A program made the translations under genes and the position numbers. Of a stretch of DNA of 64,000 nucleotides, positions 21,528-53,774 are shown in pieces. This stretch comes from Nitrospirota bacterium (GTDB taxonomy: Bacteria; Nitrospirota; Thermodesulfovibrionia; Thermodesulfovibrionales; SM23-35). Position 1 is the first letter of the stretch; each line of letters opens with the position of its first letter. The notes below the pieces were generated by a model. That model worked only from the letters and a program-made list of their open reading frames with translations, had not been told where the DNA came from and did not search any database. The DNA lies in NCBI GenBank assembly GCA_014859105.1, contig JACUUX010000003.1, positions 62,001 to 126,000 on the forward strand, written 5' to 3'.

Positions 21528-22620
21528 AATATTTATTGGTACTCGTGGCAGCAAACTCGCTCTCTGGCAGGCGGAATGGGTCAAGGCCGAACTGGAAATA
21601 CTTTATCCTGAATTTGAGATTGAACTTGTGAAAATAAAAACTACGGGCGATAAAATTCTGGATGTTCCCCTTGCAGCGGCTGGAGGCAAGGGCCTTTTTG
21701 TTAAGGAAATAGAAGAGTCGCTTCTAAGACATAATATAGATATAGCTGTTCACAGTATGAAGGATGTGCCAACAGAATTCCCTGACGGCCTTCACCTTGC
21801 AGCGGTATGCAAGAGAGAGGACCCCAGAGATGCATTAATCTTAAGTAAGAGGTCAAATCCCCCCACCCCCCTGATTCCCCCCTTGACAAGGGGGGAATCA
21901 GGGGGGGGCAAAAAGGTGGGCGAGGGGGGATTTGGAACTCATCGTTCTTTACTATTTACTTTGCCACATGGTGCGAGGATAGGCACAAGCAGTCTGAGAC
22001 GTTCATGCCAGTTGCTTAATATTAGACCTGATTTAAAGATCAAAAACCTTAGAGGAAACCTTGACACAAGACTCAGAAAACTTGACGAAGGTCAGTTTGA
22101 CGCAATAATACTGGCTGCTGCAGGCGTAAAAAGGCTCGGACTGGAAAACAGGATAACAGAACTGTTCCCCTTCGAGGTGAGCCTCCCGGCTATAGGGCAG
22201 GGAGCAATAGGTGTTGAGTGCAGGATTGATTACGAGTTTGTCAATAAGCTTATCGCACCGCTGAATCACCCCGAGACTTTTAAATGTGTAAAGGCAGAAA
22301 GGGCTTTCTTGAAGAGATTAGAAGGTGGTTGTCAGGTTCCAATTGCAGCATATGCAAGAATCATCGGGAAAGAGTCAAGAGTCAATAGTCATTCGTCATT
22401 GTTAAAGTCCGGTGACCAATGTCCAGTGACCAATGACCGCTCTGTGCTTATCATGGACGGACTTGTGGGAAGTCTGAATGGTGAAAAGATTATAAGAAGT
22501 CATATAGAGGGTAATCCGGAACAGGCAGAATTCCTTGGGATTAAAATGGCAGAAGATATACTCTCAAGAGGTGCAAAGGAAATACTGGACGAGGTATATA
22601 AAAGATCCCTGCCGCGTTAA
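21499..22620 (+). CDS. hemC: Porphobilinogen deaminase with repeat-derived inserts
   Basis: It polymerises four porphobilinogen units into hydroxymethylbilane. Motifs present: IGTRGSKLALWQ near the start, DIAVHSMKDVPTE (81-93), GTSSLRRSCQL (162-172), and the dipyrromethane-cofactor cysteine in EGGCQVPIAAYA (Cys about 278). At 373 residues it is about 60 longer than E. coli HemC (313). The excess is explained by two inserts: about 118-148, from a C/G-rich palindrome (Pro- then Gly-rich), and about 291-314, from heptanucleotide repeats. Neither breaks the frame. The start is uncertain: TTG 21499, GTG 21505 or TTG 21514, all within the hemA 3' end. Confidence 0.94.
   Translation: MTVKKLKKNRIFIGTRGSKLALWQAEWVKAELEILYPEFEIELVKIKTTGDKILDVPLAAAGGKGLFVKEIEESLLRHNIDIAVHSMKDVPTEFPDGLHLAAVCKREDPRDALILSKRSNPPTPLIPPLTRGESGGGKKVGEGGFGTHRSLLFTLPHGARIGTSSLRRSCQLLNIRPDLKIKNLRGNLDTRLRKLDEGQFDAIILAAAGVKRLGLENRITELFPFEVSLPAIGQGAIGVECRIDYEFVNKLIAPLNHPETFKCVKAERAFLKRLEGGCQVPIAAYARIIGKESRVNSHSSLLKSGDQCPVTNDRSVLIMDGLVGSLNGEKIIRSHIEGNPEQAEFLGIKMAEDILSRGAKEILDEVYKRSLPR
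21856..21932. repeat. In-frame GC-rich palindromic element in hemC
   Basis: A nested inverted repeat. The outer arms are AATCCCCCCACC and GGTGGGCGAGGGGGGATT; the inner arms are CTGATTCCCCCC and GGGGGGAATCAG around TTGACAA. It is read as Asn-Pro-Pro-Thr-Pro then Gly/Lys-rich residues between the conserved ALILSKR and PHGARIGTSSLRR blocks of HemC, so it has inserted into a loop without stopping translation. Confidence 0.9.
22366..22440. repeat. Heptanucleotide tandem array in hemC
   Basis: A 7-base period of the GAGTCAA GAGTCAA TAGTCAT TCGTCAT kind, then GGTGACC AATGTCC AGTGACC AATGACC. It translates as a polar Ser/Asn/Asp stretch (about residues 291-314) just after the cofactor-binding region of HemC. 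Confidence 0.85.
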
Positions 22621-22636
22621 TGAAGGAGTTAGGAAG

Positions 22637-23290
22637 TTAGCCTAATCTTTCTTTTCTCTCCAGTTCTTCGAGTTGTTCTCTTCTTTCCTGACAGTCAATG
22701 CAGTATATAGCAAATGGAAGGACTTTAAGTCTTTCTTCATTTATCTCCTCTCCACAGTCCTCGCATATCCCGTAGGTGCCCTCATTGAGTTTCCTCAGGG
22801 CTTCGTCTATCTTCTGAAGATTTTCCCGATGTGTACTTAACTGTTTTAAGCTTATATCTTCAGAAAGATCAACAACCGACCAGTCTCCATCGTCAAGAGC
22901 TGTGTCAACAAGCTGTTTTTTCTCACCTTTTATGTATTTGGATATCTCCTCTTTTGCTTCTTTAAGGATCTCTTCCCTCTTCTTAATTAGCGCCTTTCTT
23001 AAAGTTGCCTTCCTTTCGTCTTCTGCTTTTTTAGCCGGCAATTTGCTGGCAGTTAAAGGCCCAGTTACAGGTTTAATAGTTGTCTTCTTTTTAAAAGGTT
23101 TTTCCGGCTTGGTGGTCTTCTTGACCGCGGGCTTTTTGGAAACAGTTTTTTTAGTTGTTATCTTCTTCTTTTTTTTGCCAGTCTTCGATTCTGTTCTGAG
23201 AGCAACTTTCTTTGCTTCTGGCTTTGCTTTTGGAGATATTTTTTTATGTTTCTTTTCTGTTTTTCTCTTTTTAATTTTTTTAGCCGGCAT
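22637..23290 (-). CDS. DksA/TraR-type zinc-finger protein with long basic N-terminus
   Basis: Likely a regulator binding RNA polymerase in its secondary channel, as DksA does with ppGpp, or a general-stress relative. The C-terminal half (about 115-217) has a coiled-coil region and a four-cysteine finger: GICEDCGEEI, then YCIDCQERRE. The first about 95 residues are extremely Lys-rich with Thr, Pro and Ala (PAKKIKKRKTEKK-like), probably disordered and nucleic-acid binding. E. coli DksA is 151 residues; the basic tail makes this 217. It is the last gene after frr, with its ATG fused to the stop of a possible tiny ORF (TAATG). Confidence 0.85.
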   Translation of the reverse strand: MPAKKIKKRKTEKKHKKISPKAKPEAKKVALRTESKTGKKKKKITTKKTVSKKPAVKKTTKPEKPFKKKTTIKPVTGPLTASKLPAKKAEDERKATLRKALIKKREEILKEAKEEISKYIKGEKKQLVDTALDDGDWSVVDLSEDISLKQLSTHRENLQKIDEALRKLNEGTYGICEDCGEEINEERLKVLPFAIYCIDCQERREQLEELERKERLG

Positions 23291-23445
23291 TACTTACCTT
23301 CTTTTATTTGAGTTTCCTCTGATTTTTCTTCCTCCCTGAATATCTCTATAATGCTTCTGACCTTTATCCCTGCAGCCTGCGGCGCCTTCTGCATATCTGT
23401 CAATTTCGCATCTGTTACTTTCAGGATGAAATTACTGTTTGTTAT
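23290..23445 (-). CDS. Possible 51-aa ORF coupled to the DksA-type gene
   Basis: Between frr and the DksA-type gene one frame is open and protein-like, including the segments ILKVTDAKLTDMQKAP and GIKVRSIIEIFREEE. Its TAA shares its last base with the next ATG (TAATG), which suggests translational coupling. No ATG, GTG or TTG lies near its upstream end. The only well-placed codon is an ATA six bases after GGAGG, inside the end of frr. A rare AUA start, an internal TTG start, or no translation at all are the options. I recognise no family. Confidence 0.35.
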   Translation of the reverse strand: MTNSNFILKVTDAKLTDMQKAPQAAGIKVRSIIEIFREEEKSEETQIKEGK

Positions 23446-23446
23446 C

Positions 23447-24719
<1,273 letters not shown>

Positions 24720-25325
24720 TTATCCTGTGACTATTTCTCCAAGCTGGAATCTGGCGAATCTCCTTATAACGATATTCTCACCCAATTTTGCTATCTTCTC
24801 GGTAACAATACCTTTGATACTTTTTTTCTGTTCAGGGTCTTTTATAAATATCTGATCCAGAAGACAGGTATCCGTGAAAAATTTTTCGAGTTTTCCTTCA
24901 ATAATCTTTTCAACAACATGCGGAGGTTTGTCAGCAACCTGTGCCCTGTATATCTCCTTTTCCCGTTCTATTATTTCTTGAGGAACGTCTTCTCTTGTCA
25001 GATATTGTGGATTAGAAGCTGCTATTTGCATGGCGATGTCTTTTGCAAGCTCCTTAAAATCTTCAGTCCTTGCAACAAAGTCGGTCTCGCAGTTAACCTC
25101 AACTAACGTTCCTAATTTACCCATGTGTATATAAGACTCTATCAAGCCTTCTGAGGCTTTCCGGCCTGATTTCTTTAAAGCACTCGCAAGGCCTTTCTGC
25201 CTGAGTATGTCTAAAGCCTTTTCTAAATCTCCATTACTTTCAGTAAGTGCCCTCTTGCATTCCATCATCCCTGCGCCTGTTTTTTCTCTTAGGTCTTTAA
25301 TCATATCTATAGTTATACTTGTCAT
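24720..25325 (-). CDS. tsf: Elongation factor Ts, short form
   Basis: The nucleotide-exchange factor for EF-Tu. It starts with the family signature [20 protein letters not shown], and the EF-Tu-contacting [10 protein letters not shown] follows near residue 80. At 201 residues it is the short form (E. coli has 283), lacking the second core subdomain as in several thermophiles and cyanobacteria. The start overlaps the rpsB stop by 4 bases. Confidence 0.96.
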
Positions 25326-26083
25326 TCTGACACCTCTGCTTCTTCCTGCTGGATTTTCTCTTCAACACTCAATTTTTCTTCCTCTTCTGCTATGCTCTTT
25401 GACAGGGCCTCCTTGCCTTCTATTACCGCATCTGCTATCCTGGAGGTGATCAATTTTATAGCTCTTATGGCATCATCATTGCCGGGAATGACATAATCAA
25501 TCTCATCGGGGTCACAGTTTGTATCAACTATTGCGACTATGGGAATAGAAAGCTTCTTTGCCTCGGCCACAGCAATTCTCTCCTTTTTCGGGTCTACTAT
25601 AAAAAGAGCCCCCGGAAGGCCGGGCATTTCTTTAATGCCTGAAAGGTATTTATCAAGCTTGCCCCCTTCTTTCTCTATTGCAGCTGCTTCTTTTTTTGTA
25701 AGGAGATCGAGCGTTCCATCCTCTTTCATTGTCTCAATCTTTTTTAACTTCTCGATGCTTTTCTTTATAGTTGAAAAATTAGTGAGCATTCCACCGAGCC
25801 AGCGGTGATTTACGTAGTATGCGCCAGCCCTTGTCGATTCTTCCTGTATGGCGTCCTGTGACTGTTTTTTTGTCCCTACAAAGAGTGTCGGAGCACCCGT
25901 CATAGCAACATTTTTTATGAAATTATAAGCATCCTCAAGCCCCTTTACTGTTTTCTGGAGGTCGATTATATAGATACCGTTCCTTTCTCCAAAGATATAC
26001 TTCTTCATCTTGGGATGCCATCTTTTCACCTGATGACCAAAATGTACACCAGCCTCAAGCAGTTCTTTCATTGCAGCTATCAT
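25322..26083 (-). CDS. rpsB: 30S ribosomal protein S2
   Basis: Small-subunit ribosomal protein, 253 residues with the start chosen here. [20 protein letters not shown] opens the family, and the [10 protein letters not shown] and DTNCDP blocks are present. A longer frame begins at 26152, but the ATG at 26083 is preferred: GGAGGAG stands upstream and relatives start just before MKELL. The tail after residue about 225 is acidic (many Glu). First gene of the operon; the promoter should lie in the 26084-26272 divergent gap shared with purB. Confidence 0.96.
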
Positions 26084-26272
26084 GTTCTTTTTTCTCCTCC
26101 TGTATTTTCCTCTGTTTACTCGTGATATCACCATATTGGCGCACAGAGGCAAAATGATGTATTTCTGAAAGAAAAAAGCTATCTTTCAGGAAGAAAAGAT
26201 TAACATAAAAATATCTTTTTTTGCAAGGGGATAGGGTGGTAGAATATAACAAAATTTTTTGAAAGGAGAAAT

Positions 26273-27568
26273 ATGATACCACGTTATACACGCCCTGAAA
26301 TGGGAAAGTTGTGGAATCTTGAGAATAAATATCAGAAATGGCTCGATGTCGAGATCGCGGTCTGTGAGGCATGGGCGGAACTCGGGGAAATACCCGTAGA
26401 TGTACTGAAGGTCATAAAGAAAAAGGCGGATTTTGACATAAAGGAGATCGCCAAGATAGAAAAGGTTGTAAAACACGACGTAATCGCATTTCTTACATCA
26501 GTAGCTCATCATATAGGGTCTGAGTCAAGATTTATACACAAAGGACTGACGTCATCAGACATTCTCGATACAGCGTTAGCCCTACAGTTGAAAGAAGCTG
26601 CTGACCTTATTATCAAAGATATTAAAGGACTTATGGATGTTATAAAAGCACAGGCCTATAAATACAAAGATACCCCCATGATCGGTAGAAGTCATGGTGT
26701 TCACGCCGAACCAACAACGTTCGGTCTCAAATGCGCACTCTGGCATGAAGATATGAGAAGGAACTTATTTAGGATGAGACATGCTAAGGATATTATAAGC
26801 ATCGGGAAGCTTTCAGGTGCTGTTGGCACATTTTCGAACATCCCGCCAGATATTGAAGAGAGAGTATGCAAGAAGCTCGGCCTTAAACCTGAGCCTGTTG
26901 CCACACAGGTAGTCCAGCGGGACAGACATGCTGAATATCTTACAACGCTTGCACTAATAGCAGCTTCCATTGACAAAATAGCAATTGAAATAAGACATCT
27001 TCAAAGGACAGAAGTCATGGAGGTGGAAGAACCTTTTGTAGCAGGGCAGAGGGGATCATCCGCAATGCCTCACAAACGGAATCCAGTGGGTTGTGAAAAT
27101 CTCTCCGGGCTTGCAAGACTCGTTAGGACAAATGCACTTGCATCAATTGAAAATATTGCCTTATGGCACGAAAGAGACATTTCACACTCTTCTGTTGAAC
27201 GGGTGATCATCCCAGACAGTACAATACTCGTTGATTATATGCTCAACAGGCTTAAAGGAATTTTAGATGGGCTGCACGTATACCCGAAGAAGATGAAAGA
27301 AAATATGGCGAAAAGTTATGGTCTCTATAATTCTCAGAGGGTAATGCTTGCACTTATAGACAAAGGCCTCAGCCGTGATGCTGCCTACGATATCGTGCAG
27401 AGAAACGCAATGGCAAGCTGGAAAAAGGGAATTGCGTTCAAGAGATTGCTTTTGAAGGATAAAGAAGTTAAGGAATACCTCACATCAAAAGAGATCACGG
27501 ACATCTTCGACCTCGAATATTATCTCAAGAATGTAGATTACATATTCACCAGAATTTTTGGGAAATAA
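26273..27568 (+). CDS. purB: Adenylosuccinate lyase
   Basis: Splits fumarate from SAICAR and from adenylosuccinate in purine synthesis. It is 431 residues, the usual length for the bacterial short form. It has the N-terminal RYTRPEMGKLW segment, TSSDILDTA, GRSHGVHAEPT (catalytic His) and the signature GSSAMPHKRNPV near residue 265. GGAGA precedes the ATG. It reads toward purL, 55 bases away, so both purine genes may share a transcript. Confidence 0.96.
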   Translation: MIPRYTRPEMGKLWNLENKYQKWLDVEIAVCEAWAELGEIPVDVLKVIKKKADFDIKEIAKIEKVVKHDVIAFLTSVAHHIGSESRFIHKGLTSSDILDTALALQLKEAADLIIKDIKGLMDVIKAQAYKYKDTPMIGRSHGVHAEPTTFGLKCALWHEDMRRNLFRMRHAKDIISIGKLSGAVGTFSNIPPDIEERVCKKLGLKPEPVATQVVQRDRHAEYLTTLALIAASIDKIAIEIRHLQRTEVMEVEEPFVAGQRGSSAMPHKRNPVGCENLSGLARLVRTNALASIENIALWHERDISHSSVERVIIPDSTILVDYMLNRLKGILDGLHVYPKKMKENMAKSYGLYNSQRVMLALIDKGLSRDAAYDIVQRNAMASWKKGIAFKRLLLKDKEVKEYLTSKEITDIFDLEYYLKNVDYIFTRIFGK

Positions 27569-27623
27569 TCAGCTTTGTATTGAGACTTTTTTGATTCTCC
27601 ATTTCTGCTAAAATAAATATTCA

Positions 27624-30600
27624 ATGAGTCTATTGCATTTTTATCGAAAACCAGCCCTTACGCAGCCAAAGACAAACGGACTGTTATCGATTGCGAAACA
27701 GAAAATATCGCCTGATATTCTCGAGATAGAAACAGAATACTGTTTTAATGTTGAGACTTCACATCCACTTACAGGGGAGGAGTTGAATATCCTCCGATGG
27801 CTTCTGGCAGAAACCTTTGAGCCGGAGAATTTTGGCGATAGAAGTTTTCTAACGCATAATTCAGAATACATCCCCCCCTCCCCCTCGAGGGGGGAGGGTG
27901 AGGGAGGGGGTGAAGGTCTTTTTACCCGTCACTCGTCACCTGTCACTCGTTACCGTCTTCTTGAGGTTGGCCCCCGCATGAACTTCACAACAGCATGGTC
28001 TACAAATGCGGTGTCAGTATGTCATGCTTGCGGAATTAAAAAGATTACACGGATTGAGCGGTCGAGGAGATATAAATTAGTCATAAGTCATCAGTCACCC
28101 CTCCTCAATCCCCCCCTTAATAAGGGGGGGAAAGGGGGGGGTAAGTTATCATCCCTTCAACCTTCAACCTTCAACCTTCAACCTTTTTTGGACTTGATTC
28201 ACGACCGAATGACTGAATGCCAATATCCAGAACCTCTTTCGACCTTCGAAACAGGTATAAACCCAGAGCCGGTTTGCATTGTTCCATTAATTGAGGAAGG
28301 GAAAAATACTCTCAGAAAGATAAACACCGAAATGGGACTCGGGCTCGATGAATGGGACATAGATTATTATTACAACCTGTTTGTTAATGAAATGCATCGA
28401 AATCCCACGAATGCAGAATATTTTGACCTCGGTCAGTCAAACAGCGAGCATTCAAGACACTGGTTCTTCAAGGGAAGATTGATAATTGACGTAGAGGAAA
28501 TGCCCCAGACGCTCATGGAAATAATTAAGTATCCATTAAAGACTAATCCTAATAACAGCGTCATCGCTTTTAAAGACAACTCAAGTGCGATACGCGGATA
28601 TAAAATATTTACAATCATTCCGGAAAAATCCGGAAAACCATCACGATTTAAAAAAGAAATATTGGATTACTACATAATCTTCACAGCCGAAACACATAAT
28701 TTTCCTACCGGTGTAGCACCTTTCCCCGGAGCAGAAACAGGCACAGGGGGAAGGATAAGAGATATTCATGCAACCGGAAGGGGTAGCCTGGTGATAGCGG
28801 GTACTGCAGCCTATTGCGTCGGCAATCTTCATATACCCGGCTATTACCTGCCCTGGGAGGATCTGTCTTTCGAATACCCCAAAAACCTTGCAACCCCCTT
28901 ACAGATAGAGATAGAAGCAAGCAATGGTGCATCAGATTATGGGAATAAATTTGGCGAGCCTGTAATACAGGGTTTTACAAGGTCTTTCGGGATGAGACTC
29001 CCAGATGGCGAAAGGAGGGAATGGGTAAAACCCATAATGTTTACCGGCGGTGTCGGCCAGATAGATGACAGACATATTGAAAAGGGAGAGCCTCAAAAAG
29101 GGATGTTCGTTGTTAAGATCGGTGGTCCTGCTTACAGAATCGGAATGGGCGGCGGTGCTGCATCGAGCTTGATACTGGGAGAAAACATAGAAGAGCTTGA
29201 CTTCAATGCTGTACAGCGTGGTGACGCAGAGATGGAGCAGAAGGTTAACAGGGTCATAAGGGCTTGTGTAGAAATGGGAGATGATAATCCTATCGTAAGC
29301 ATCCATGACCAGGGGGCGGGAGGTAACTGTAATGTAGTTAAAGAGATAATTTATCCTGCTGGAGCAAAGATCGAGATAAGAAATATCCAGCTCGGTGACA
29401 ATACCCTTTCGGTACTCGAGATATGGGGCGCTGAATATCAGGAACAGGACGCTTTACTCATAAAACCTGAAAGAGAGGAAGAATTCCTATCTGTCTGTAA
29501 GAGGGAGAAAGTTCCCTGCGCGGTAATTGGTGAAATTACTGGAGACGGATATATAGTTCTTCACGATGAAACAGATGGTAGCACGCCTGTGAATCTCGAT
29601 CTTTCAAAAGTTCTTGGTGATATGCCGCAGAAGATCTTTATGTCCGAAAGAATAAAACCAAAACTCGAAGCTTTAAAATTACCAGAAGATTTAACATTTA
29701 AAGAAGCCCTTAATCGTGTACTTCGCCTCATTTCAGTTGGTTCAAAAAGATTTCTGACCAATAAAGTCGATAGGTCGGTTACAGGTCTTGTTGCTCAACA
29801 ACAGTGTACCGGCCCTCTTCAATTGACTCTATCGAATGTTGCCGTAATTAGTCAGAGTCATTTTAGTTTGACAGGTGCAGCTATTTCCATTGGTGAACAA
29901 CCAATAAAAGGTTTGATAAGCCCCGGGGCGATGGCAAGAATGAGTGTAGGAGAATCGCTCACGAATATAGTATGGGCGAAGGTAAGTTCATTGGAAGACA
30001 TTAAATGTTCAGGGAACTGGATGTGGGCTGTCAAGCTTGCAGGTGAAGGCGCCAGATTGTATGATGCTGCAATAGCATTGAGAGATATCCTTGTTAAATT
30101 CGGAATGGCCATTGACGGGGGTAAGGATAGTCTATCGATGGCTGCAAAGATTGTTGATCCATCAGGCAGGACAGAGATAGTTAAATCACCAGGCACTCTT
30201 GTTATCTCTGCATACGTAACATGTCCTGATATTGCAAAGGTTATAACACCCGATTTAAAAAGACCTGGTGAGAGCAGATTGCTTTATATTGATCTCGGAA
30301 AAGGTAAATACAGGATGGGAGGAACTGCATTAGCACATGTTTACGGTCAACTCGGTAATGAAGCACCCGACCTCGATGACCAAGACCTTTTCAAGCACGT
30401 ATTTAATGCTATACAGGAAATTATTTCAGAGGATTTAATCCTGTCGGGCCATGACAGAAGTGACGGAGGATTGATAACAACCCTGCTCGAAATGGCATTT
30501 GGAGGTAATTGCGGAATTAAAATTAACATAGAAGTTAAGAAGATAAGAAGCTCGGAAGATAAGAAATCTAAACTTCATAACCTCTCAACTTCTCAACTTC

Positions 30601-31772
30601 TGTCTATATTATTCTCTGAAGAATTAGGACTGGTAACCGAATATCTTGCTGAAAAAGAAGAACAGATAATATCCAAACTGCAAAAATACAATATCCCTTA
30701 CCAAATCATTGGCAGTACTACTAAAGAACAGACAATCAAAATAAGTATAAATAATGAATTGATTATGAAAGAAGATATGAGAGTTCTCAGGGCTATATGG
30801 GAAGATACGAGCTATCACTTAGACATGCTCCAGGCAAATCCGGAATGTGTTGATGAAGAAAGAGCCGTAAATTTTGACAGGAAGGGACCTCAATATGTAC
30901 TGACATTTTCCCCTAAAAATCCCCCCACCCCCCCTTTACTAAAGGGGGGCAAGGGGGGATTAACGGATGTTAAGCCGAAAATAGCCATTATCCGTGAAGA
31001 AGGAAGCAATGGCGACCGCGAAATGACATCCGCCTTTTATCAGGCAGGGTTTGAAGTCTGGGATGTAATGATGACAGACATGCTTGAAGAAAGAATAAAC
31101 CTCGATGATTTCAGGGGTATCGCCTTTGTAGGAGGATTCAGTTATGCAGACGTCCTCGATTCTGCAAAAGGCTGGGCCGGAGTGATAAGGTTCAATAAAA
31201 AACTTTACGAACAATTCCAGAGTTTTTATGAAAGGCCTGATACTTTCAGTCTTGGTGTATGTAACGGCTGTCAGCTAATGGCGCTCCTTGGATGGGTGCC
31301 GTGGAGTGGAATCCCGGACAGATTTCAGCCGAGGTTCATACAGAACATATCCGGCAGGTTTGAATCACGTTTTTCAACAGTAAAAATATTACCTGGTCCT
31401 GCCATCATGCTGAAGGGCATGGGAGGCTCTACTTTAGGAGTATGGGTAGCACATGGTGAAGGAAGGCTTAATTTCCCTGACAGTAAAATACAGGAAGAAG
31501 TGTTAAGAAAAAATCTTGCTCCTCTGAGGTTTGTTGATGATAATGGAGAATTTACTGAAAAATATCCCTTCAATCCCAACGGCTCTCCTTCAGGCATTAC
31601 AGCACTCAGTTCGCCGGATGGCAGACATCTCGCCATGATGCCGCATCCCGAAAGAACATTCCTGAAATGGCAATGGGCCTATATTCCGGGGGAATGGAAA
31701 AAAACCCTCGAAGCCTCCCCGTGGTTCAAGATGTTCCAGAATGCAAGGGAGTGGTGTAAATCAACACTCTAA
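27624..31772 (+). CDS. purL: Phosphoribosylformylglycinamidine synthase, single-chain, with repeat-derived inserts
   Basis: Fourth step of purine synthesis, FGAR to FGAM. It is one polypeptide of 1382 residues with the synthetase core (for example ETHNFPTGVAPFPGAETGTGG and GGDAQITG-like PurL blocks from about 350) fused to a C-terminal glutamine amidotransferase from about 1118 (GVCNGCQLM nucleophile Cys, about 1212). It corresponds to the large PurL of Gammaproteobacteria (about 1295 residues), not the small PurL plus PurQ/PurS complex. Four inserts account for most of the extra length: about 79-111, 152-188, 982-993 and 1097-1113. They derive from GC-rich palindromes and heptanucleotide arrays. 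The last falls exactly in the linker before the amidotransferase domain. The frame is open throughout. Confidence 0.95.
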   Translation: MSLLHFYRKPALTQPKTNGLLSIAKQKISPDILEIETEYCFNVETSHPLTGEELNILRWLLAETFEPENFGDRSFLTHNSEYIPPSPSRGEGEGGGEGLFTRHSSPVTRYRLLEVGPRMNFTTAWSTNAVSVCHACGIKKITRIERSRRYKLVISHQSPLLNPPLNKGGKGGGKLSSLQPSTFNLQPFLDLIHDRMTECQYPEPLSTFETGINPEPVCIVPLIEEGKNTLRKINTEMGLGLDEWDIDYYYNLFVNEMHRNPTNAEYFDLGQSNSEHSRHWFFKGRLIIDVEEMPQTLMEIIKYPLKTNPNNSVIAFKDNSSAIRGYKIFTIIPEKSGKPSRFKKEILDYYIIFTAETHNFPTGVAPFPGAETGTGGRIRDIHATGRGSLVIAGTAAYCVGNLHIPGYYLPWEDLSFEYPKNLATPLQIEIEASNGASDYGNKFGEPVIQGFTRSFGMRLPDGERREWVKPIMFTGGVGQIDDRHIEKGEPQKGMFVVKIGGPAYRIGMGGGAASSLILGENIEELDFNAVQRGDAEMEQKVNRVIRACVEMGDDNPIVSIHDQGAGGNCNVVKEIIYPAGAKIEIRNIQLGDNTLSVLEIWGAEYQEQDALLIKPEREEEFLSVCKREKVPCAVIGEITGDGYIVLHDETDGSTPVNLDLSKVLGDMPQKIFMSERIKPKLEALKLPEDLTFKEALNRVLRLISVGSKRFLTNKVDRSVTGLVAQQQCTGPLQLTLSNVAVISQSHFSLTGAAISIGEQPIKGLISPGAMARMSVGESLTNIVWAKVSSLEDIKCSGNWMWAVKLAGEGARLYDAAIALRDILVKFGMAIDGGKDSLSMAAKIVDPSGRTEIVKSPGTLVISAYVTCPDIAKVITPDLKRPGESRLLYIDLGKGKYRMGGTALAHVYGQLGNEAPDLDDQDLFKHVFNAIQEIISEDLILSGHDRSDGGLITTLLEMAFGGNCGIKINIEVKKIRSSEDKKSKLHNLSTSQLLSILFSEELGLVTEYLAEKEEQIISKLQKYNIPYQIIGSTTKEQTIKISINNELIMKEDMRVLRAIWEDTSYHLDMLQANPECVDEERAVNFDRKGPQYVLTFSPKNPPTPPLLKGGKGGLTDVKPKIAIIREEGSNGDREMTSAFYQAGFEVWDVMMTDMLEERINLDDFRGIAFVGGFSYADVLDSAKGWAGVIRFNKKLYEQFQSFYERPDTFSLGVCNGCQLMALLGWVPWSGIPDRFQPRFIQNISGRFESRFSTVKILPGPAIMLKGMGGSTLGVWVAHGEGRLNFPDSKIQEEVLRKNLAPLRFVDDNGEFTEKYPFNPNGSPSGITALSSPDGRHLAMMPHPERTFLKWQWAYIPGEWKKTLEASPWFKMFQNAREWCKSTL
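27865..27957. repeat. Palindrome plus heptamer insert 1 in purL
   Basis: CCCCCCCTCCCCCTC-GAG-GGGGGAGGG-type inverted repeat at 27870-27913, followed by GTCACTC GTCACCT GTCACTC GTTACC (27928-27955), a 7-base period array. The product is a Pro/Ser then Gly/Glu-rich loop followed by Ser/His/Arg residues near position 79-111 of PurL. Confidence 0.85.
28078..28187. repeat. Composite repeat insert 2 in purL
   Basis: Three blocks in a row: a short GTCATAA GTCATCA GTCACCC heptamer run (28080-28100), an inverted repeat AATCCCCCCCTTA ... TAAGGGGGGG (28107-28140), and four near-exact CTTCAAC heptamers (28155-28182). The frame stays open, giving residues about 152-188 (Ser/His, Pro/Leu/Asn, Gly/Lys, then Ser/Gln/Pro). 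Confidence 0.9.
30569..30603. repeat. Short tandem repeat insert 3 in purL
   Basis: AACTTCATAACCTCTCAACT and a second CTCAACTT unit give a 7-8 base period. It is read as a Leu/Ser/Thr-rich piece (LSTSQLLS) between conserved PurL segments near residue 985. Confidence 0.6.
30915..30961. repeat. GC-rich palindrome insert 4 in purL
   Basis: Arms AATCCCCCCACCCCCC and GGGGGGCAAGGGGGGATT around TTTACTAAA. It is read NPPTPPLLKGGKGGL at the linker between the synthetase and glutamine amidotransferase domains. Nearly the same peptide (NPPVPPLAKGGEGGF) appears in WaaA from the copy at 53348-53393. Confidence 0.92.
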
Positions 31773-31813
31773 ATTTTTAAATAACCCTGTCTGCCCGCCC
31801 CTTTTCTTCTTTT

Positions 31814-39686: not shown

Positions 39687-39699
39687 AACCTTAACTATT

Positions 39700-39860
39700 T
39701 AGAGTCTGTCTATAAAGTATGATTTACGTAATCTGTCATTCCCGGATCCCCGATCGCTGTCGAGGGCATGCTTGATCGGGGAATCCGGTATTTTCAATAT
39801 GTTCTGGATTGTCCGGTCAAGCCGGACAAAGACAAAATGAAAATTTATGGACAGACACTA
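39700..39860. mobile_element. 161-bp MITE with terminal inverted repeats, copy 3
   Basis: Left end TAGAGTCTGTCTATAAA (39700-39716) and right end TTTATGGACAGACACTA (39844-39860) are inverted repeats with 15 of 17 bases paired. Inside is a palindrome with GTCATTCCCGGATCC, CTTGATCGGGGAATCCGG and TCTGGATTGTCCGGTCAAG. No target-site duplication is certain. No coding capacity is seen, so movement would need a transposase from elsewhere. It is the most complete of several copies. Confidence 0.8.
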
Positions 39861-43258: not shown

Positions 43259-43321
43259 GCAAATTGATGAAAAACCCCTGTAACAATAGATATTTTATAG
43301 TTGCTGTGCTATATTTTTCTT

Positions 43322-45208: not shown

Positions 45209-45309
45209 ATTTTGGCAATGAGCTATGAGCAAAGAGCAAGAGTCCAGAGTAATTAAAGGGAATTTGGCTTATAACTCTTCGCTACAAACTCTATGCTAAA
45301 TGCTAATTA

Positions 45310-45385: not shown

Positions 45386-45471
45386 ACACTCTTAACTTAC
45401 AATCGGATAATAAGCTATAATGAACGGTATTACTTAAAAAATACTAATAAGAAAGGGTAGACTTTGTCAAT

Positions 45472-46992: not shown

Positions 46993-47006
46993 AGGTGAAT
47001 GATTAA

Positions 47007-47591: not shown

Positions 47592-47608
47592 TGCAGGATG
47601 TTGGCTAT
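47570..47608. repeat. Heptanucleotide array at the trpG stop
   Basis: GATACTG GATGCCT GATGCAG GATGTTG, 7-base period, spanning the trpG stop codon (47589-47591). It defines the last few residues of TrpG. Confidence 0.75.
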
Positions 47609-47918
47609 AGATATAAGAAATTCAAAATTATTTTATTAATCATCAAGGACCTTAAAAAACATTTAAGATCTTTTATTCTGTCCTTGCCCGACTTGATCGG
47701 GCAATCCAGCGAAAGGTTCTGGATTATCCGGTCAAGCCGGATAATGACTACAATTGAACAAAGTTGACTATGTATTAAAGGTTCGCAGGGAAAAGCCGTT
47801 AGTGTCACCCTGAATTTATTTCAGGGTCTTGTAAGTTAGAGATGCTGAAACGAGTCTTCGACGTGAGCTCAGCGGAACGTTCAGCATTACAAAAGAAAAT
47901 ATTTTAGAAATAAAAACT
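47609..47918. repeat. trpG-trpD gap filled with palindromic repeats (MITE-like copy 4)
   Basis: Bases 47678-47748 are a TGCCCGACTTGATCGGGCAAT ... GGATTATCCGGTCAAGCCGGATAATGA palindromic unit like copies 1 and 3. A second type follows at 47797-47890: GTCACCCTGAAT ... CAGGGTCTTG with a GATGCTGAA ... TTCAGCAT pair. No gene is seen. The repeats interrupt an otherwise compact trp operon, so trpD may depend on read-through or its own promoter. Confidence 0.75.
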
Positions 47919-48929
47919 ATGATTAAAGAAGCGATAAACATGCTTGTAAATAATATCAGTCTCTCAGAGCTTGAGATGGCTGAATGTATGAAAGAGATAA
48001 TGGAAGGCAGGGCAACGGAAGCCCAGATGGGTGGATTTCTCACTGCACTCAGGGTAAAAGGTGAGACAGTGGATGAAATAACAGGTGCAGCAAAGATTAT
48101 GAGGGAAAAGGCAACCACTATAAAAGCTCCTGAAGGGGTTCTTGATACATGCGGTACGGGTGGTGATATGTCACATACCTTCAATATATCAACAACAACT
48201 GCGATCGTAGTGGCTGCAGCCGGAGTCCCTGTGGCAAAACATGGCAACCGTTCTGTTTCGAGTCAGTCAGGGAGTGCGGATGTACTGGAGGCACTGGGAG
48301 TAAAAATAGATATGTCTCCAGAGAAAGTAGAAAAGTGTCTCTCCGAAACAGGATTCGGCTTCCTTTTTGCACCAATATTTCACCCTGCTATGAAATTTGC
48401 TGTTGGACCACGCAGGGAGATAGGAATAAGAACCATATTTAACATACTCGGACCTATAACAAATCCTGCTGGAGCAAGGAGACAAATCCTCGGTGTTTTT
48501 GCAGACAAACTTACCGAAATACTTGCTATGGTTCTTGGAAATCTCGGTGCAATAGAAGCAATGGTTGTGCATGGAGAAGACGGACTGGACGAGATCAGTA
48601 TCTCCAGCAGGACAAAAGTGGCAAGACTTAAAAACGCTAAAGTAGAAAGCTTTTTAATACAACCGGAAGATTTCGGAATATGGAGAAATGAAATTGAACA
48701 AATTCGAGGTGGTGATAAAGAAAAGAATGCTGCTATTACTCTGTCAATCCTGAAGGGAGAAAAAGGACCAAAAAGAGATATCATTCTTATGAATTCGGCT
48801 GTTGCTCTCATCGTCGCGGGAAAGGCAGAGGATTTTAAGGTAGCATTTGGTATGGCGGAAGATTCCATAGATTCCGGGAGGGCATTTAAAAAACTTGAAG
48901 AGGTAAAGAGAGTTAGCAATATTCTATGA
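47919..48929 (+). CDS. trpD: Anthranilate phosphoribosyltransferase
   Basis: Joins anthranilate to phosphoribosyl pyrophosphate. It is 336 residues. The PRPP-binding DTCGTGGDMSHTFNISTTTA (about 74-93) and the KHGNRSVSSQSGSADVLEALG block (about 107-127) are diagnostic; MVHGEDGLDEIS is the C-terminal landmark. Downstream 9 bases away lies the oxidoreductase gene, so trp and lipid A genes may share a transcript. Confidence 0.96.
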   Translation: MIKEAINMLVNNISLSELEMAECMKEIMEGRATEAQMGGFLTALRVKGETVDEITGAAKIMREKATTIKAPEGVLDTCGTGGDMSHTFNISTTTAIVVAAAGVPVAKHGNRSVSSQSGSADVLEALGVKIDMSPEKVEKCLSETGFGFLFAPIFHPAMKFAVGPRREIGIRTIFNILGPITNPAGARRQILGVFADKLTEILAMVLGNLGAIEAMVVHGEDGLDEISISSRTKVARLKNAKVESFLIQPEDFGIWRNEIEQIRGGDKEKNAAITLSILKGEKGPKRDIILMNSAVALIVAGKAEDFKVAFGMAEDSIDSGRAFKKLEEVKRVSNIL

Positions 48930-48938
48930 GGAGGATAT

Positions 48939-49856
48939 TTGGCTGTTAAAGTAGGAGTTATAGGAGTTGGATATTTAGGCCAGCACCATGCAAGAATTTT
49001 TTCTGAACTCCGGGAAGCAGAGCTTGTTGCTGTTGTTGATATTGATAAAATTAGGGCTGATACATTTGCTGAAAAATATTGTTGTGAATCTTATACTGAC
49101 TTCAAAGACATCCTCCATAAAGTCGATGCCCTCAGTATTGTAACACCAACGCCTTCTCACTTCGATATAGCCTTTGATTGCTTAAGAGCTGGCAAAGACC
49201 TCTTAATAGAAAAGCCTATAACAGTAAGCATTGATGAAGCTGACGAGCTCATCAGAGGGTTAAAAGACACGGACTGTATTATCCAGGTAGGCCATCTTGA
49301 AAGATATAACCCTGCTATACTTGCTGTTTCAGATATGATAAATGAACCGGTATTTATAGAGTCGGAGAGATTTTCACCATTCCTCGGCAGGGGAACGGAT
49401 GTTGATGTGACCCTCGATCTTATGATTCATGATATAGACATCATACTTAGTCTCATTTCTTCACCTATCAAAGAGATCAAAGCAGTTGGTTCTAAAGTTC
49501 TCACTGACAAGATTGATGTTGCAAAGGCATGGCTTGAGTTCGAAAACGGATGTACTGCACTTGCCACCGTAAGCCGCCTCTCCCCTGTAAAACAGAGAAA
49601 ATTAAAGATATTCCAGAAAGACGCCTATATCTCAATTGATTATCAAACCTCGGAAATAAAGCGATACTTCAGGAACGAGAGTGGCATTGCATCTGAAATC
49701 AAAATACCTGAACATAAAGAGCCTTTAAAAGAAGAACTCAGGGATTTTATTCGTTGCGTAAAGGAAAGGAAAAGACCAATAGTCTCTGCTATTGAAGGAA
49801 GAGATGCCCTTAAAGTGGTTCTGGAGATAAGTAATATTATTAAAAACGGACTGTAG
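48939..49856 (+). CDS. Gfo/Idh/MocA oxidoreductase, likely GnnA-type (UDP-GlcNAc 3-dehydrogenase)
   Basis: NAD(P)-dependent sugar dehydrogenase of 305 residues. Rossmann motif GVIGVGYLGQHHARIF is at the N-terminus, and EKPITVSIDEA (about 89-99) carries the catalytic-region Lys-Pro. The C-terminal half holds substrate residues such as GHLERYNPA. The start is a TTG 6 bases after GGAGG. Directly before an aminotransferase and lpxB it matches gnnA-gnnB, which together turn UDP-GlcNAc into a 3-amino sugar for lipid A with four amide-linked chains. The pathway role is inferred from context. Confidence 0.82.
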   Translation: MAVKVGVIGVGYLGQHHARIFSELREAELVAVVDIDKIRADTFAEKYCCESYTDFKDILHKVDALSIVTPTPSHFDIAFDCLRAGKDLLIEKPITVSIDEADELIRGLKDTDCIIQVGHLERYNPAILAVSDMINEPVFIESERFSPFLGRGTDVDVTLDLMIHDIDIILSLISSPIKEIKAVGSKVLTDKIDVAKAWLEFENGCTALATVSRLSPVKQRKLKIFQKDAYISIDYQTSEIKRYFRNESGIASEIKIPEHKEPLKEELRDFIRCVKERKRPIVSAIEGRDALKVVLEISNIIKNGL

Positions 49857-49962
49857 AAACTTACTGTATAAATATCAAATATTGTTCTGTAAAAAATAAA
49901 TACATAACGAGACCCTGAATCAAGTTCAGGGTGACAGTGAATAGAGTCAAGGAGACAATCGA

Positions 49963-51054
49963 ATGATTCCGATGGTCGATTTAAAGAGAGAGTTTCAGAA
50001 GATCAAAGAAGACATATTCGAAGTTCTCAGGGAAATACTCGAAAGCAGTCAGTACATACTCGGAGACAGAGTCTCTGAGGTAGAAAAAAAAATTGCAGAA
50101 TATCATGATGTCAAGGATGGTATAGGAGTTGCGTCAGGTACTGATGCACTACATTTATCAATTGATGCCTTAGGAATCGGACAGGGTGACGAGGTTATCA
50201 CAACACCCTTTACCTTCTTTGCAACAGTCGAGGCAATATTATATACAGGTGCCACACCCGTCTTTGTAGACATCGAACCCGACACATTAAACATAGATGT
50301 CAGTAAGATCGAGGAAAATATAACAGAAAGGACAAAGGCAATTCTTCCTGTTCATCTATTCGGGCATCCATCTGATATGGCAGAAATATCAAAGATAGCA
50401 AAGAATCACAGACTAAAAATAATAGAAGATTGTGCCCAGTCCTTTGGTGCTGAAATAAACGGCAAAAAGGTTGGATGTTTCGGGGATGCGGGGTGCTTCA
50501 GTTTTTACCCGAGTAAAAACCTCGGAGCATATGGAGACGGAGGCATGATAATCCTTAACAATATGCGGTTAGCCGGCATCATAAGGCAATTGAGAAACCA
50601 TGGCTCAAAGGGATCGTACATCCATAAGAGAGTCGGGTTTAACAGCAGGCTTGATGAGATACAGGCTGGTGTTCTTCTTATTAAATTGAAATATATTGAT
50701 GAATATAACACTAAGAGGAGAAGAAACGCAGCAATTTACACAACCCTTCTTTCAAACAATATAAAGTGTCCTGTAGAAAAAAACGTTTCATATCATGTCT
50801 ACCACCAGTATACGATCATGAGTAAGAAAAGAGACCGGATACAACATAAGCTCAGGGAAAATGGCATTTCATCAGTCATATACTATCCCGTCCCGCTTCA
50901 TCTCCAGGAAGCACTTAGATTTTTAGGCTATCGAAAAGGAGATTTCCCCACCGCTGAGAAAGCATCAAGGGAAGTCCTCTCGCTACCGATGTATCCTGAC
51001 CTCGAAGAGTCAAAAATAATAAAGATAGCAAATATAGTTATGAAATCCCTTTGA
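49963..51054 (+). CDS. DegT/DnrJ/EryC1 aminotransferase, likely GnnB-type
   Basis: A PLP-dependent sugar aminotransferase of 363 residues. It opens MIPMVDLKREF, has the ASGTDALHLSIDALGIG cofactor-phosphate segment, EDCAQSFGA for the PLP ring and FSFYPSKNLGAYGDGG with the Schiff-base lysine (about 184). Between a Gfo/Idh oxidoreductase and lpxB it probably aminates the 3-keto sugar to make UDP-GlcNAc3N. Other nucleotide-sugar roles are possible in this broad family. It overlaps the longest lpxB frame by 4 bases. A small palindrome (ACCCTGAATCAAGTTCAGGGT) precedes it. Confidence 0.85.
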   Translation: MIPMVDLKREFQKIKEDIFEVLREILESSQYILGDRVSEVEKKIAEYHDVKDGIGVASGTDALHLSIDALGIGQGDEVITTPFTFFATVEAILYTGATPVFVDIEPDTLNIDVSKIEENITERTKAILPVHLFGHPSDMAEISKIAKNHRLKIIEDCAQSFGAEINGKKVGCFGDAGCFSFYPSKNLGAYGDGGMIILNNMRLAGIIRQLRNHGSKGSYIHKRVGFNSRLDEIQAGVLLIKLKYIDEYNTKRRRNAAIYTTLLSNNIKCPVEKNVSYHVYHQYTIMSKKRDRIQHKLRENGISSVIYYPVPLHLQEALRFLGYRKGDFPTAEKASREVLSLPMYPDLEESKIIKIANIVMKSL

Positions 51055-51089
51055 CTCGAATAATGCATTTTGGAGCTAAACTATACCTA

Positions 51090-52304
51090 ATGAATACTGT
51101 TATGATAATTTCCGGCGAAAGCTCGGGTGAATTATACGGCTCACTCCTTGCTAAAGCACTAAAAAACAAATGGCCTGATATGCATATCATCGGGGTTGGT
51201 GGCGAAAGGATGCGCGAAGCAGGAGTTGAGCTTGTATCAAGCATATCAGATGCTTTCGGTTTAATTGAAGCAATCTCGGCATACAGTAAAATTAAAGCTG
51301 CCTTCAAAAAAACGGCCGAAGCTCTTAAAAAGTTCAAGCCCGATGTCCTCGTCCTTATAGATTATCCTGATTTCAATATTAAATTAGCAAAGGTAGCTAA
51401 ATCTTATGGTGTAAAGATTTTGTACTATGTCAGTCCGCAGGTATGGGCATGGCGTAAAGGAAGGGTAAAGAAGATTGCAAATATAGTGGATAGAATGGCT
51501 GTTCTTTTTCCATTTGAAGAGAAGATTTACAGGGAAGCGGGTATTAAGTGTGAATTTGTAGGGCATCCGATTGTTGAGGAGATTGAATCTGTGATACAGT
51601 CATCAGTCATCGGTCATCAGTCATTAGTGAAAAACAGCTACCAACGTCCAATAATCAATGACCCGAAAGACTTTGAACTTCGAACTTACTTCAAATCTGC
51701 CCTCGGTCTTGATCCAAAAAAACCCGTTCTTTCACTTCTCCCTGGAAGCAGGCCTCATGAATTAAAAAGACTGTTACCACTAATGATAGATGTTGTCAGG
51801 CAATTCAGAAATGAGTTCGCTGATTATCAATTCTGTATACCACTCGCCCCGAACACCGAAGAAGAAAGATATAGTCTTTATCTTGAGTCACTCCGAGAGG
51901 AAGGAGTTAACATTAAAAAGGGCGAATCTGTCAGGGTACTCGCTGCTTCTGATATGGCAGTAGTTGCATCAGGCACGGCAACTCTCCAGACAGCTTTTCT
52001 TGAAGTTCCAATGATTGTTCTGTATAAACTTTCGCCTTTTACATTCTTTTTAGGAAAACTCATTGTGGATATAAAACATATATCACTTGTCAATATTCTT
52101 GCAGGCAGGGAAGTCGTCCAGGAACTTCTTCAGAAAAAAGCTAATCCGGACGACATAATAAAAGAGCTTAAAAAGATAATACTCGATAAAAAATACAGAG
52201 AAGAGATGCTTCAAGCTTACCGAGCAATAAAGGAACCATTTTTTGAAAAAAGGGCATCTGAAAGAGTTGCAGAGATGGTAATCGAGATGGCTGGGCAAAT
52301 ATAA
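51090..52304 (+). CDS. lpxB: Lipid-A-disaccharide synthase
   Basis: Joins UDP-2,3-diacylglucosamine to lipid X, forming the lipid A disaccharide at the inner face of the membrane. The start at 51090 (MNTVMIISGESSGELYG) agrees with relatives; the frame is open back to 51051. 404 residues. Landmarks: GVGGERMREAG, VLIDYPDFNIKLAK, YYVSPQVWAWRKGR, LLPGSRPHEL and VASGTATLQTAFL. A roughly 33-residue insert (about 169-201) before the GLDPKKPVLSLLPGS block comes from heptanucleotide repeats (GTCATCA-type, then CTTTGAA CTTCGAA). Confidence 0.95.
   Translation: MNTVMIISGESSGELYGSLLAKALKNKWPDMHIIGVGGERMREAGVELVSSISDAFGLIEAISAYSKIKAAFKKTAEALKKFKPDVLVLIDYPDFNIKLAKVAKSYGVKILYYVSPQVWAWRKGRVKKIANIVDRMAVLFPFEEKIYREAGIKCEFVGHPIVEEIESVIQSSVIGHQSLVKNSYQRPIINDPKDFELRTYFKSALGLDPKKPVLSLLPGSRPHELKRLLPLMIDVVRQFRNEFADYQFCIPLAPNTEEERYSLYLESLREEGVNIKKGESVRVLAASDMAVVASGTATLQTAFLEVPMIVLYKLSPFTFFLGKLIVDIKHISLVNILAGREVVQELLQKKANPDDIIKELKKIILDKKYREEMLQAYRAIKEPFFEKRASERVAEMVIEMAGQI
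51594..51692. repeat. Heptanucleotide array in lpxB
   Basis: GTCATCA GTCATCG GTCATCA GTCATTA, then TACCAAC GTCCAAT AATCAAT, then CTTTGAA CTTCGAA CTTACTT: three sub-arrays with a common 7-base period. They lie at the hinge between the two GT-B lobes, a loop in the fold. Confidence 0.88.
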
Positions 52305-52385
52305 GTTTGTCATTCCGCACTTGATGCGGAATCAAGGATGTATCACTATTTTCTGGATTCCTGCTTTCGCAGGAATGACAGGAAA
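52305..52385. repeat. Palindromic repeat after lpxB (MITE-like copy 5)
   Basis: TTGTCATTCCGCACTTGATG and CGGAATCAAGG, then TTCTGGATTCCTGCTTTCGC and AGGAATGACAGG. The ends GTCATTCC/GGAATGAC pair over the whole unit and two smaller hairpins lie inside. It lies between lpxB and waaA, which are 165 bases apart. Confidence 0.8.
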
Positions 52386-52469
52386 TCAAACTTATTGTCT
52401 TTTTGGTATTTTCAGGTCAATACCAATAAATGAGCAGAACCTTGATGAATTTTTAGAAAAGTTATAGAA

Positions 52470-53774
52470 ATGTATTTACTTTATAGTCTCATATATATAA
52501 TTGCTCTGACCTTCTTATTCCCTTTTGAATATTTCAAAAGGGAAAAAGATCTCAGAAAAAGATGGCTTAGAGAAAAGTTTGGATTCTTTACTTCATTATT
52601 CATCCTTCATCCCCCGTCGTTCATCTGGATTCACGCAGTATCTGTGGGAGAGGTAATTGCTGCTACGCCGTTGCTTAAAAGCCTGAGGAAAAGATATCCA
52701 TCAAAAGAAATTATCCTGTCAACAATCACTGATACCGGCCAGAAGGTAGCAAAAGAAAGAGCACCCGGGGGGACAGTGGTCGTTTATTTGCCTTTTGATA
52801 TTGCTTTTATTTTTAAATCATTGTTAAAAAAAATAAAACCAGAGATCTTAATTGTAATCGAGACAGAATTATGGCCAAATCTGCTAAGGGTCTTTAAGGA
52901 AAACAATGTTCCGGTTATTCTCCTCAATGGCAGAATCTCTGAAAAATCATTTAAAGGATATCGCAGGATTTCATTCTTTATGAGACGGGTGCTTTCGTAT
53001 GTTGATTTCTTCGGAATGCAGAATGAAGTATATGCTGATAGGATAAAAAGCCTCGTTGCTAACAATAGCAGCAGGATTGCAAATTTAGGAAATTTTAAAT
53101 TCGACACGACACCCTCATCACATATCCCTGACTGGGCAGGTGAGATAAAACACCCTGTGATCATAGCGGGCAGTACTCACGAGGGAGAGGAGGAGTTCAT
53201 ATCATCTGTTTATCTCGAACTTAAAAAGGATTTTCCTGATCTAAATCTCATCATTGCTCCACGGCATCCAGAAAGGTTTAAGTTAGTTGGAGATATGCTC
53301 AAATCAAAAGGAATCTCATTTATTAAGCGTTCAGAGTTCAGAACTTCTAATCCCCCCGTCCCCCCTTTAGCAAAGGGGGGTGAGGGGGGATTTTCCGAAC
53401 TCCAAACTTTTGCTGGCACTATTATCCTTCTTGACACAGTAGGAGAACTATCGGCTGTCTATGGTGTATCCGATATCACAATCATCGGCAAGAGTTTCAA
53501 AGGCTACGGAGGACAGAATCCATTTGAACCCGCTTTCTGGGGTAAGCCCATATTATGTGGCCCGCATATGGAGAATTTCCCTGTTATCCAGGATTTCTAC
53601 AAAGCAGGGGCCGCCACTGAAGTAAAAGAAGAGGAGCTTTATTTAAAATTGAGGGAACTGCTTACAATGCCTGAAAAAGCAAAGGATATTGGTTTAAAAG
53701 CACAGGAACTTTACAGAAAAAATTCAGGCGCTGTCGAGGAGGCAATGAAGGTTATTGAAAGGTATATTTCTTAA
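52470..53774 (+). CDS. waaA: 3-deoxy-D-manno-octulosonic acid (Kdo) transferase
   Basis: Adds Kdo to lipid A at the inner membrane. It is 434 residues, with an N-terminal membrane anchor (about 4-22). Family blocks: WIHAVSVGEVIAATPLL, LSTITDTGQKVA, ETELWPNLLR, LLNGRISEKSFKGY, GSTHEGEEE, APRHPERF and the C-terminal GQNPFEPAFWGKPILCGPHM. A roughly 28-residue insert (about 286-314) with a Pro- and Gly-rich centre comes from a GC palindrome flanked by heptamers (DNA 53328-53410). Last gene of the lipid A group. Confidence 0.95.
   Translation: MYLLYSLIYIIALTFLFPFEYFKREKDLRKRWLREKFGFFTSLFILHPPSFIWIHAVSVGEVIAATPLLKSLRKRYPSKEIILSTITDTGQKVAKERAPGGTVVVYLPFDIAFIFKSLLKKIKPEILIVIETELWPNLLRVFKENNVPVILLNGRISEKSFKGYRRISFFMRRVLSYVDFFGMQNEVYADRIKSLVANNSSRIANLGNFKFDTTPSSHIPDWAGEIKHPVIIAGSTHEGEEEFISSVYLELKKDFPDLNLIIAPRHPERFKLVGDMLKSKGISFIKRSEFRTSNPPVPPLAKGGEGGFSELQTFAGTIILLDTVGELSAVYGVSDITIIGKSFKGYGGQNPFEPAFWGKPILCGPHMENFPVIQDFYKAGAATEVKEEELYLKLRELLTMPEKAKDIGLKAQELYRKNSGAVEEAMKVIERYIS
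53328..53412. repeat. Palindrome flanked by heptamers in waaA
   Basis: CGTTCAG AGTTCAG AACTTCT leads into AATCCCCCCGTCCCCCC-TTTAGCAAA-GGGGGG...GGGGGGATT (53349-53392), then TTCCGAA CTCCAAA CTTTTGC. Both repeat classes are thus nested at one site, as also in purL. The frame reads straight through (RTSNPPVPPLAKGGEGGFSE). Confidence 0.9.

Follow-up and report, generated by a model that had tools for sequence, protein, structure and literature searches.

Why do the reading frames of several housekeeping enzymes in a Nitrospirota bacterium run on through GC-rich palindromes, and what are these stretches? The question arises from a window of 64,000 nucleotides (positions 62001-126000 of contig C60, within a 3.16 Mb Nitrospirota genome of 148 contigs), in which five stretches with C-run and G-run arms lie inside hemC, purL and waaA. 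A preliminary description of this window had taken them for in-frame copies of a mobile palindrome tolerated in protein loops. All five are at the positions it gave, the three hosts are backed by Pfam, and each open reading frame (ORF) continues uninterrupted through its inserts. Our analysis makes it very probable that they are tiny mobile hairpins, not autonomous, whose insertions survive when they fall in frame and into a loop.

Such small hairpins would spread through Nitrospirota genomes, landing in and between genes; related units nest and merge. Copies within genes would survive mainly if the frame is kept, no stop is introduced and a loop is hit. In several frames and in both orientations, the C-run and G-run arms encode a similar flexible stretch of Pro-Pro and Gly-Gly, PPxPPLxKGGxGG, of a kind that surface loops can accommodate. 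The distribution of the sequences suggests that the palindromes have moved and that selection has filtered the copies by frame and place; the inserted peptide presumably has no function of its own.

Architecture of the palindromes

The copies in the third loop of purL (30918-30961) and in waaA (53349-53392), already noticed to give nearly the same peptide, are one 44-nt element, which we named family A, with the peptides NPPTPPLLKGGKGG and NPPVPPLAKGGEGG. It is laid out as AATCCCCCC, 2 nt, CCCCCCTTT, a 3-nt loop, AAAGGGGGG, 3 nt and GGGGGGATT, so that a 9-bp outer stem (AATCCCCCC/GGGGGGATT) and a 9-bp inner stem (CCCCCCTTT/AAAGGGGGG) enclose a 2x3 internal loop. None of 200 shuffles folds as well as the 44-nt element at either site (z −4.3 in purL and −5.5 in waaA). 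A 7-nt core and longer spacers distinguish family B, and family C is a longer element, about 95 bp by eye, with ends like TGTCATTCCCG and a similar heart. The unit size of the palindrome is about 44-47 bp. The hemC insert (z −7.1) is a family-B-type hairpin within family-A-type arms, so that units nest, and locus L166 and some copies in genome G087 are strings of hairpins (L-numbers denote loci and G-numbers other genomes compared).

The palindromic form proposed for all five inserts is thus evident in hemC, waaA and purL loop 3, and weaker in the two N-terminal purL copies, which are weak hairpins but plain C/G runs. The hairpin of stretch 27868-27912 in loop 1 is not clearly beyond shuffles (z −1.1; 28 of 200 as good), and that of stretch 28098-28146 in loop 2 has z −2.05 (10 of 200 as good). 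The stretch at 4257-4319, described as a noncoding relative, is a real hairpin (z −4.5) of different sequence and is a relative by type only.

Copies in the genome and their reading frames

The spread of the element through the genome, as supposed earlier, is borne out by a search with the core pattern CCCCCTTN{1,7}AAGGGGG, which has 77 matches (47 short and 30 long cores) against one for the same pattern reversed, used as control. We retrieved and inspected the flanks of all 77 sites. A copy was called genic when a long ORF whose codon use resembled that of coding genes ran uninterrupted through its core, so that an open frame was required. Among the 55 copies of families A and B, 38 lie in frame inside long coding-like ORFs, compared with none of the 22 family C copies (P = 7e-9; three were assigned to family C by eye, and two are at contig ends). 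The 38 in-frame copies are spread over 34 ORFs, 32 of which match a Pfam family (the exceptions are L143:1891-2430 and L161:1369-2448). By Pfam, the hosts include hemC, purL, waaA, mutL, carB, topA, dnaX, aroC and dapF (the last two with two inserts each), and further queC, truB, mnmA, hypF, a fabF-like synthase, a P-type ATPase, Cas6, Cas_NE0113 and others. As read from the match tables, at least 14 of the 38 copies fall within the span of a single Pfam match. The purL loop 1 insert has a different core and is not counted among the 38.

Nearly all in-frame copies encode a peptide close to PPxPPLxKGGxGG, and a few (L171, L153 and L162:1622) encode only part of it. The copies occupy all three phases (15, 14 and 9), and the peptide is near-identical across phases because C and G runs encode Pro and Gly in every frame. 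It had also been proposed that the choice of reading frame is selected through a stop-free reading in each orientation. An open frame is found on both strands in 52 of the 55 copies; the mean number of open frames is 3.24 in genes and 2.82 outside, against 3.05 for random 47-mers of the window, and we rejected a special stop-free reading.

We further compared copies inside genes with the 17 others, among which a copy in carA was grouped in all such comparisons. The distance from the first C to the last G is 38 nt in 13 of the 18 full-length family-A copies in genes and in one of the six others, one of these six being the carA copy (P = 0.05, hand count). In a wider sample, with 16 ambiguous rows set aside, the bias is not significant (P = 0.07), so that a frame-correcting length of family-A copies is a hint only. 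The outer arms of family A were not fixed by the search pattern, and arms more than three letters off were excluded from both groups. Their C/G letters depart from the consensus at 4 of 246 positions in genes and at 9 of 84 in the other copies (P = 0.0009), and at third codon positions in genes 2 of 82 have changed. These results suggest that the in-gene copies are young or held at the DNA level.

Presence and absence in relatives

Comparison of orthologues had been proposed as a check, and it was confined to hemC, purL and two genes of G087. The closest HemC relatives among named genomes are Nitrospirota metagenome-assembled genomes (MAGs), 68% identical at most. The HemC insert lies between DPRDA and LPxGAxxGTSSLRR. 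In 28 aligned relatives, picked from 80 loci, one (L035) has its own copy, NSPLPPFTKGGRRG, at the same loop, and two (L033 and L040) have such peptides at a second loop, which holds a tandem-type repeat in the hemC of the window. The other 25 have no palindrome peptide, and most of the 28 have a shorter unrelated stretch.

For PurL, 90 of 117 matched genomes were retrieved and three ORFs (G107, G092 and G053) were dropped, leaving 87 from the class; the regular expressions for the loops returned no match for one loop in many rows. Many genomes have the three loops (before EVGPRMNF, DRMTEC and VAIIREEGSN) in a short form, and others have C/G palindromes in them: core palindromes in G000, G025, G012, G045, G071, G037 and G065, and degraded or interrupted ones in G115, G067, G078 and G063. 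A further site near residues 931-938 has palindromes in G037, G029 and G109. Neither the loop 1 nor the loop 2 insert is present in the sister genus G070 (PurL 79% identical), in which a tandem repeat still occupies loop 2. Other dispersed repeats, some of them also palindromic, occupy the same loops elsewhere: VIARSKATKQS in G046 and G071 (the same repeat in different families), AIHESP in G008 and G087 (one genus) and EPALSLSKG in G021. With same-genus copies merged and the short matches in G041, G097 and G083 dropped by eye, 8 of 12 insertion events in PurL fall in the three loops, which were chosen after the inserts had been seen. General inverted repeats number 36 in PurL against 16.6 expected from codon shuffles, a measure too noisy alone. 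In G087, one gene has an insert that is absent in its congeners G059, G017, G065 and G033, and a second site has a different palindrome in G059 and G065 and a 10-nt stub in G017.

Thus, the inserts are absent, independently present or replaced by other repeats in relatives, which argues that they are DNA elements and not ancestral protein features. The opposite view, that the Pro/Gly stretches are an old feature of the proteins and the palindrome a by-product of CCC and GGG codons, would fit nearly the same peptide in unrelated proteins. It is barely credible when the peptide is missing from 25 of 28 HemC relatives, sits in different loops in different species and shares those loops with other repeats, and when the same palindrome DNA is also intergenic.

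The counts in sister genomes, likewise proposed earlier, range from 0 to 181 cores over 120 genomes of the class and from 2 to 181 within one genus. At least one core is present in 83 of the 120; the controls give 0-4, so that counts of a few mean little. Across the phylum, 78 of 198 genomes have a core; some other classes reach high counts, and family f28 has 0-1. Some genomes of this survey also have many control matches (26 in G134, 21 in G139 and 14 in G178). Outside Nitrospirota, the two C/G hairpins present in 21 HemC loci (139 kb) both lack the TT...AA core. No TT...AA core was found in 30 rnpB loci (matches from 29 of the 120 genomes), and the other C/G hairpins there resemble native stems.

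Separately, we observed a 65-nt palindrome starting AGGGGTCAGGTCTC within the RNase P RNA gene of G111 (L380); this motif is also near one of 30 Y1 transposase genes (L219) and in none of 60 PurL loci. Among viral contigs, two stretches matched.

Loops at the insertion sites

The proposed tolerance of the inserts in loops is supported by the structures of relatives. HemC residues 116-151 (36 residues) face residues 111-115 (five) of E. coli 1ah5, and WaaA residues 276-309 (34) face residues 244-253 (10) of 2xci. In PurL, the loop 2 insert faces a gap or shorter loop of the solved relatives, and the remaining loops are unaligned or cut off. The inserts in AroC, DapF and TopA also face a gap or a shorter loop, with a net gain of 6 to 18 residues, so that the insert may have taken the place of some native loop residues.

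An AlphaFold model of HemC (33 sequences) has a mean predicted local distance difference test (pLDDT) score of 81.7, and 236 of 373 residues score 90 or more. Residues 122-147, in the insert, score below 50 and form no secondary structure, as do residues 294-311 in the second loop; a native stretch, 51-66, is also low. In this model HemC is predicted to fold with the insert disordered.

A stop codon in carA

One of the 17 copies outside the 38 is a perfect symmetric family-A copy in carA (L148:4527-5750, minus strand, contig C30), which keeps the frame and introduces one in-frame TAA; counting it, 39 of 55 copies are in genes. The insert site, which corresponds to residues 188-192 of the E. 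coli protein, immediately precedes the glutaminase domain. Both halves of the gene are otherwise intact (carbamoyl-phosphate synthase small chain, E = 1.8e-53; GATase, E = 2e-55), and carA adjoins carB, which holds its own in-frame copy. The TAA may mean that the gene is split or has recently become a null, or it may stem from an error in the consensus.

The byp elements of Magnusiomyces mitochondria are bypassed by the ribosome, and the hairpins here might be skipped or read through in the same way rather than translated as such. The carA copy, with its stop between two intact halves, is what such skipping would permit. The explanation is nevertheless highly improbable, given that the 38 in-gene copies keep the frame and are stop-free; this is also the sorting rule, and the other 17 copies gave only carA. 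Furthermore, 63 PurL loci have two stops (G107 and G092), both outside the three loops. Frame breaks in these 63 loci affect G083, G053 and G101; the break in G053, at loop 3, consists of a run of N.

A bolder form of our interpretation holds that life in genes is normal for the element, with arms better kept there than in the other copies, that loops of conserved enzymes are shared docking sites repeatedly re-entered by several unrelated palindrome families, and that the carA stop is read through or skipped. We regard this as unlikely; if true, it would define a class of mobile DNA adapted to life inside essential genes.

Evidence bearing on mobility

Several observations weigh against mobile hairpins that survive in genes. 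The in-gene share of 38/55 is lower than the coding fraction of the window (83.5%; P = 0.009; for family A alone, 22/30, P = 0.14), which gives no sign of gene targeting. The 17 copies outside the 38 include a single interrupted gene, carA, in a sorting that required an open frame. In loci of other genomes, which were retrieved for various reasons and come in many cases from G087, an ORF with at least 70 codons on each side runs through 33 of 84 distinct cores, 48 are outside an ORF and three are ambiguous; the high in-gene share is thus a feature of this genome and not yet of the family. At purL loop 3, G070 has a possible remnant, so that this insertion may predate the genus. Neither a target-site duplication, of the kind that marks classical MITEs, nor a clean boundary was seen in the pairs of DNA compared, which are about 12-33% diverged; at one intergenic site the pair differs by a 133-bp block and not by a bare element. 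Finally, no transposase could be tied to the element.

The palindromes could instead be of the repetitive extragenic palindromic (REP) or REPIN type and be mobilized in trans by a Y1 tyrosine transposase, the REP-associated tyrosine transposase (RAYT), acting on single-stranded hairpins. The form and size of the hairpin agree with this. Y1 transposases are present in 86 of the 120 class genomes, and the number of Y1_Tnp (PF01797) matches correlates with the number of palindromes (Spearman 0.46, uncorrected for kinship). We consider such an origin possible but doubtful, since 90.8 kb around 30 Y1 genes contain no core, five genomes with at least 10 copies have no Y1 match (57 copies in G115, 23 in G044, 17 in G041, 13 in G031 and 12 in G119, some of these genomes being incomplete), and GTAG- or CGTC-like letters stand near the outer ends of only 6 of 55 copies. 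Density alone would predict about 0.6 cores around the Y1 genes (assuming 2.6 Mb per genome), and the null count thus indicates no flanking association rather than avoidance.

The hairpins could also arise anew at each site by local slippage or template switching, without a moving element, as the homopolymer arms and run lengths varying by one or two would allow. This is very improbable, since many sites in many genera share the outer ends AAT...ATT, the stem lengths and the inner TTTANTAAA. Some contigs end at a copy (L149, L192 and several of G087), and the run of N in G053 stands at purL loop 3, as might be expected if the copies were artefacts of assembling or binning a repeat-rich MAG. 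With copies inside long contigs with open frames, and also in other published assemblies, there is next to no likelihood of that.

Features within the window

The features of the window are collected in Table 1. As further observations, the tandem-type repeat AGTCATCAGTCATT... of the second HemC loop (22373-22440) is also found at 51598-51630 in ORF 51051-52304, and a related stretch is at 10000-10028. Another dispersed repeat with inverted halves (CTTGATCGGGGAATCC...GTTCTGGATTGTCCGG) lies at 117-231, 39695-39833 and 47678-47748, and two copies of an 83-nt repeat, 93% identical, lie at 54680-54762 and 58535-58617.

Table 1. Host genes, palindromes and adjoining repeats in the 64,000-nucleotide window
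Feature	Position	Strand	Evidence or remark
Different C/G hairpin, just 5' of first ATG (4349) of ORF 4313-5296	4257-4319	+	z −4.5; like type, other element
hemC (porphobilinogen deaminase), host ORF	21499-22620	+	PF01379 E 9.9e-83, PF03900 E 3.6e-19
Composite palindrome in hemC, family-A outer arms AAATCCCCCC/GGGGGGATTT enclosing a second hairpin	21855-21933	+	−37.2 kcal/mol, z −7.1
Inner family-B-type hairpin CCCCCCTGATTCCCCCCTTGACAAGGGGGGAATCAGGGGGG in hemC	21866-21906	+	sequence and folding
Second HemC loop, filled by a different tandem-type repeat (AGTCAAGAGTCAATAGTCATTC...)	22373-22440	+	
purL (FGAM synthase), host ORF with three C/G inserts	27624-31772	+	five Pfam families; solved relatives 9n9w, 1t3t
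C/G insert, purL loop 1	27870-27912	+	absent from sister genus G070
C/G palindrome, purL loop 2	28098-28143	+	in G070 a CAACCTT repeat there without palindrome
Tandem CTTCAAC repeat adjoining purL loop 2 palindrome	28146-28186	+	partly common to G070
44-nt family-A palindrome, purL loop 3, peptide NPPTPPLLKGGKGG	30918-30961	+	z −4.3
waaA (Kdo transferase), host ORF	52470-53774	+	PF04413 E 3.3e-59
44-nt family-A palindrome in waaA, peptide NPPVPPLAKGGEGG	53349-53392	+	z −5.5

Comparison with known palindromic elements

A single genome has 38 in-frame copies, and across lineages the same PurL and HemC loops are filled by different repeat families. These palindromes thus offer many natural insertions for asking how selfish DNA extends essential proteins and where enzymes tolerate extra sequence. 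They are also a system for asking what moves elements too small to code. PPxPPLxKGGxGG stretches in Nitrospirota proteins should be treated with caution, as they may be DNA inserts and not domains. No report of such palindromes in Nitrospirota was found among the titles and abstracts listed by searches of the open-access literature.

Rickettsia, Wolbachia and some REP-rich species are reported to carry palindromes inside protein genes (PMC2229807, PMC10969869, PMC3733652). GTAG- or CGTC-tagged REPs are short palindromes, and in several species some of them interrupt genes such as uvrA and uvrB (PMC3733652). Their tagged ends and the association of GTAG with a transposase both fail here (6/55 copies; none near 30 Y1 genes), and REPs are mostly intergenic, whereas 38 of 55 of the Nitrospirota palindromes are in genes (PMC3733652). 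The ERIC/RU and Correia/NEMIS repeats are likewise small and non-autonomous, with open frames fused to genes, but they are mostly longer than 100 bp with target duplications, and their sequences and hosts are different (PMC2229807, PMC2759123). The GC clusters of yeast mitochondria, such as GC42, are GC-rich palindromes of 42-48 nt, one of them in var/rps3; they resemble our element in the merging and shuffling of units and in copy numbers that differ between close relatives, but are organellar and mostly intergenic (PMC4478555).

The closest parallel in behaviour is the Rickettsia palindromic element (RPE), to which the preliminary description had likened the inserts while noting a different sequence and host; the likeness holds as one of behaviour. 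RPEs (Ogata et al. 2000) are 105-146 or about 150 bp long, with the short families RPE-4 and RPE-6 tagged CGTC, and are also found in transfer-messenger RNA and RNase P RNA, target duplication being marked as unknown (PMC2229807, PMC10969869, PMC3733652). Like RPEs, the Nitrospirota element is a dispersed, many-copy palindrome of several families that lies between genes and in frame in conserved enzyme genes, is probably tolerated by the proteins and is absent in orthologues of the genes compared. Unlike them, it is 44-47 bp long, C/G-armed and untagged, belongs to Nitrospirota, and its core was not seen in the 30 rnpB loci. Set apart from the named RPE families by host and by reported lengths rather than by sequence alignment, it is a new family of protein-gene palindromes in another phylum, with many copies in genes.

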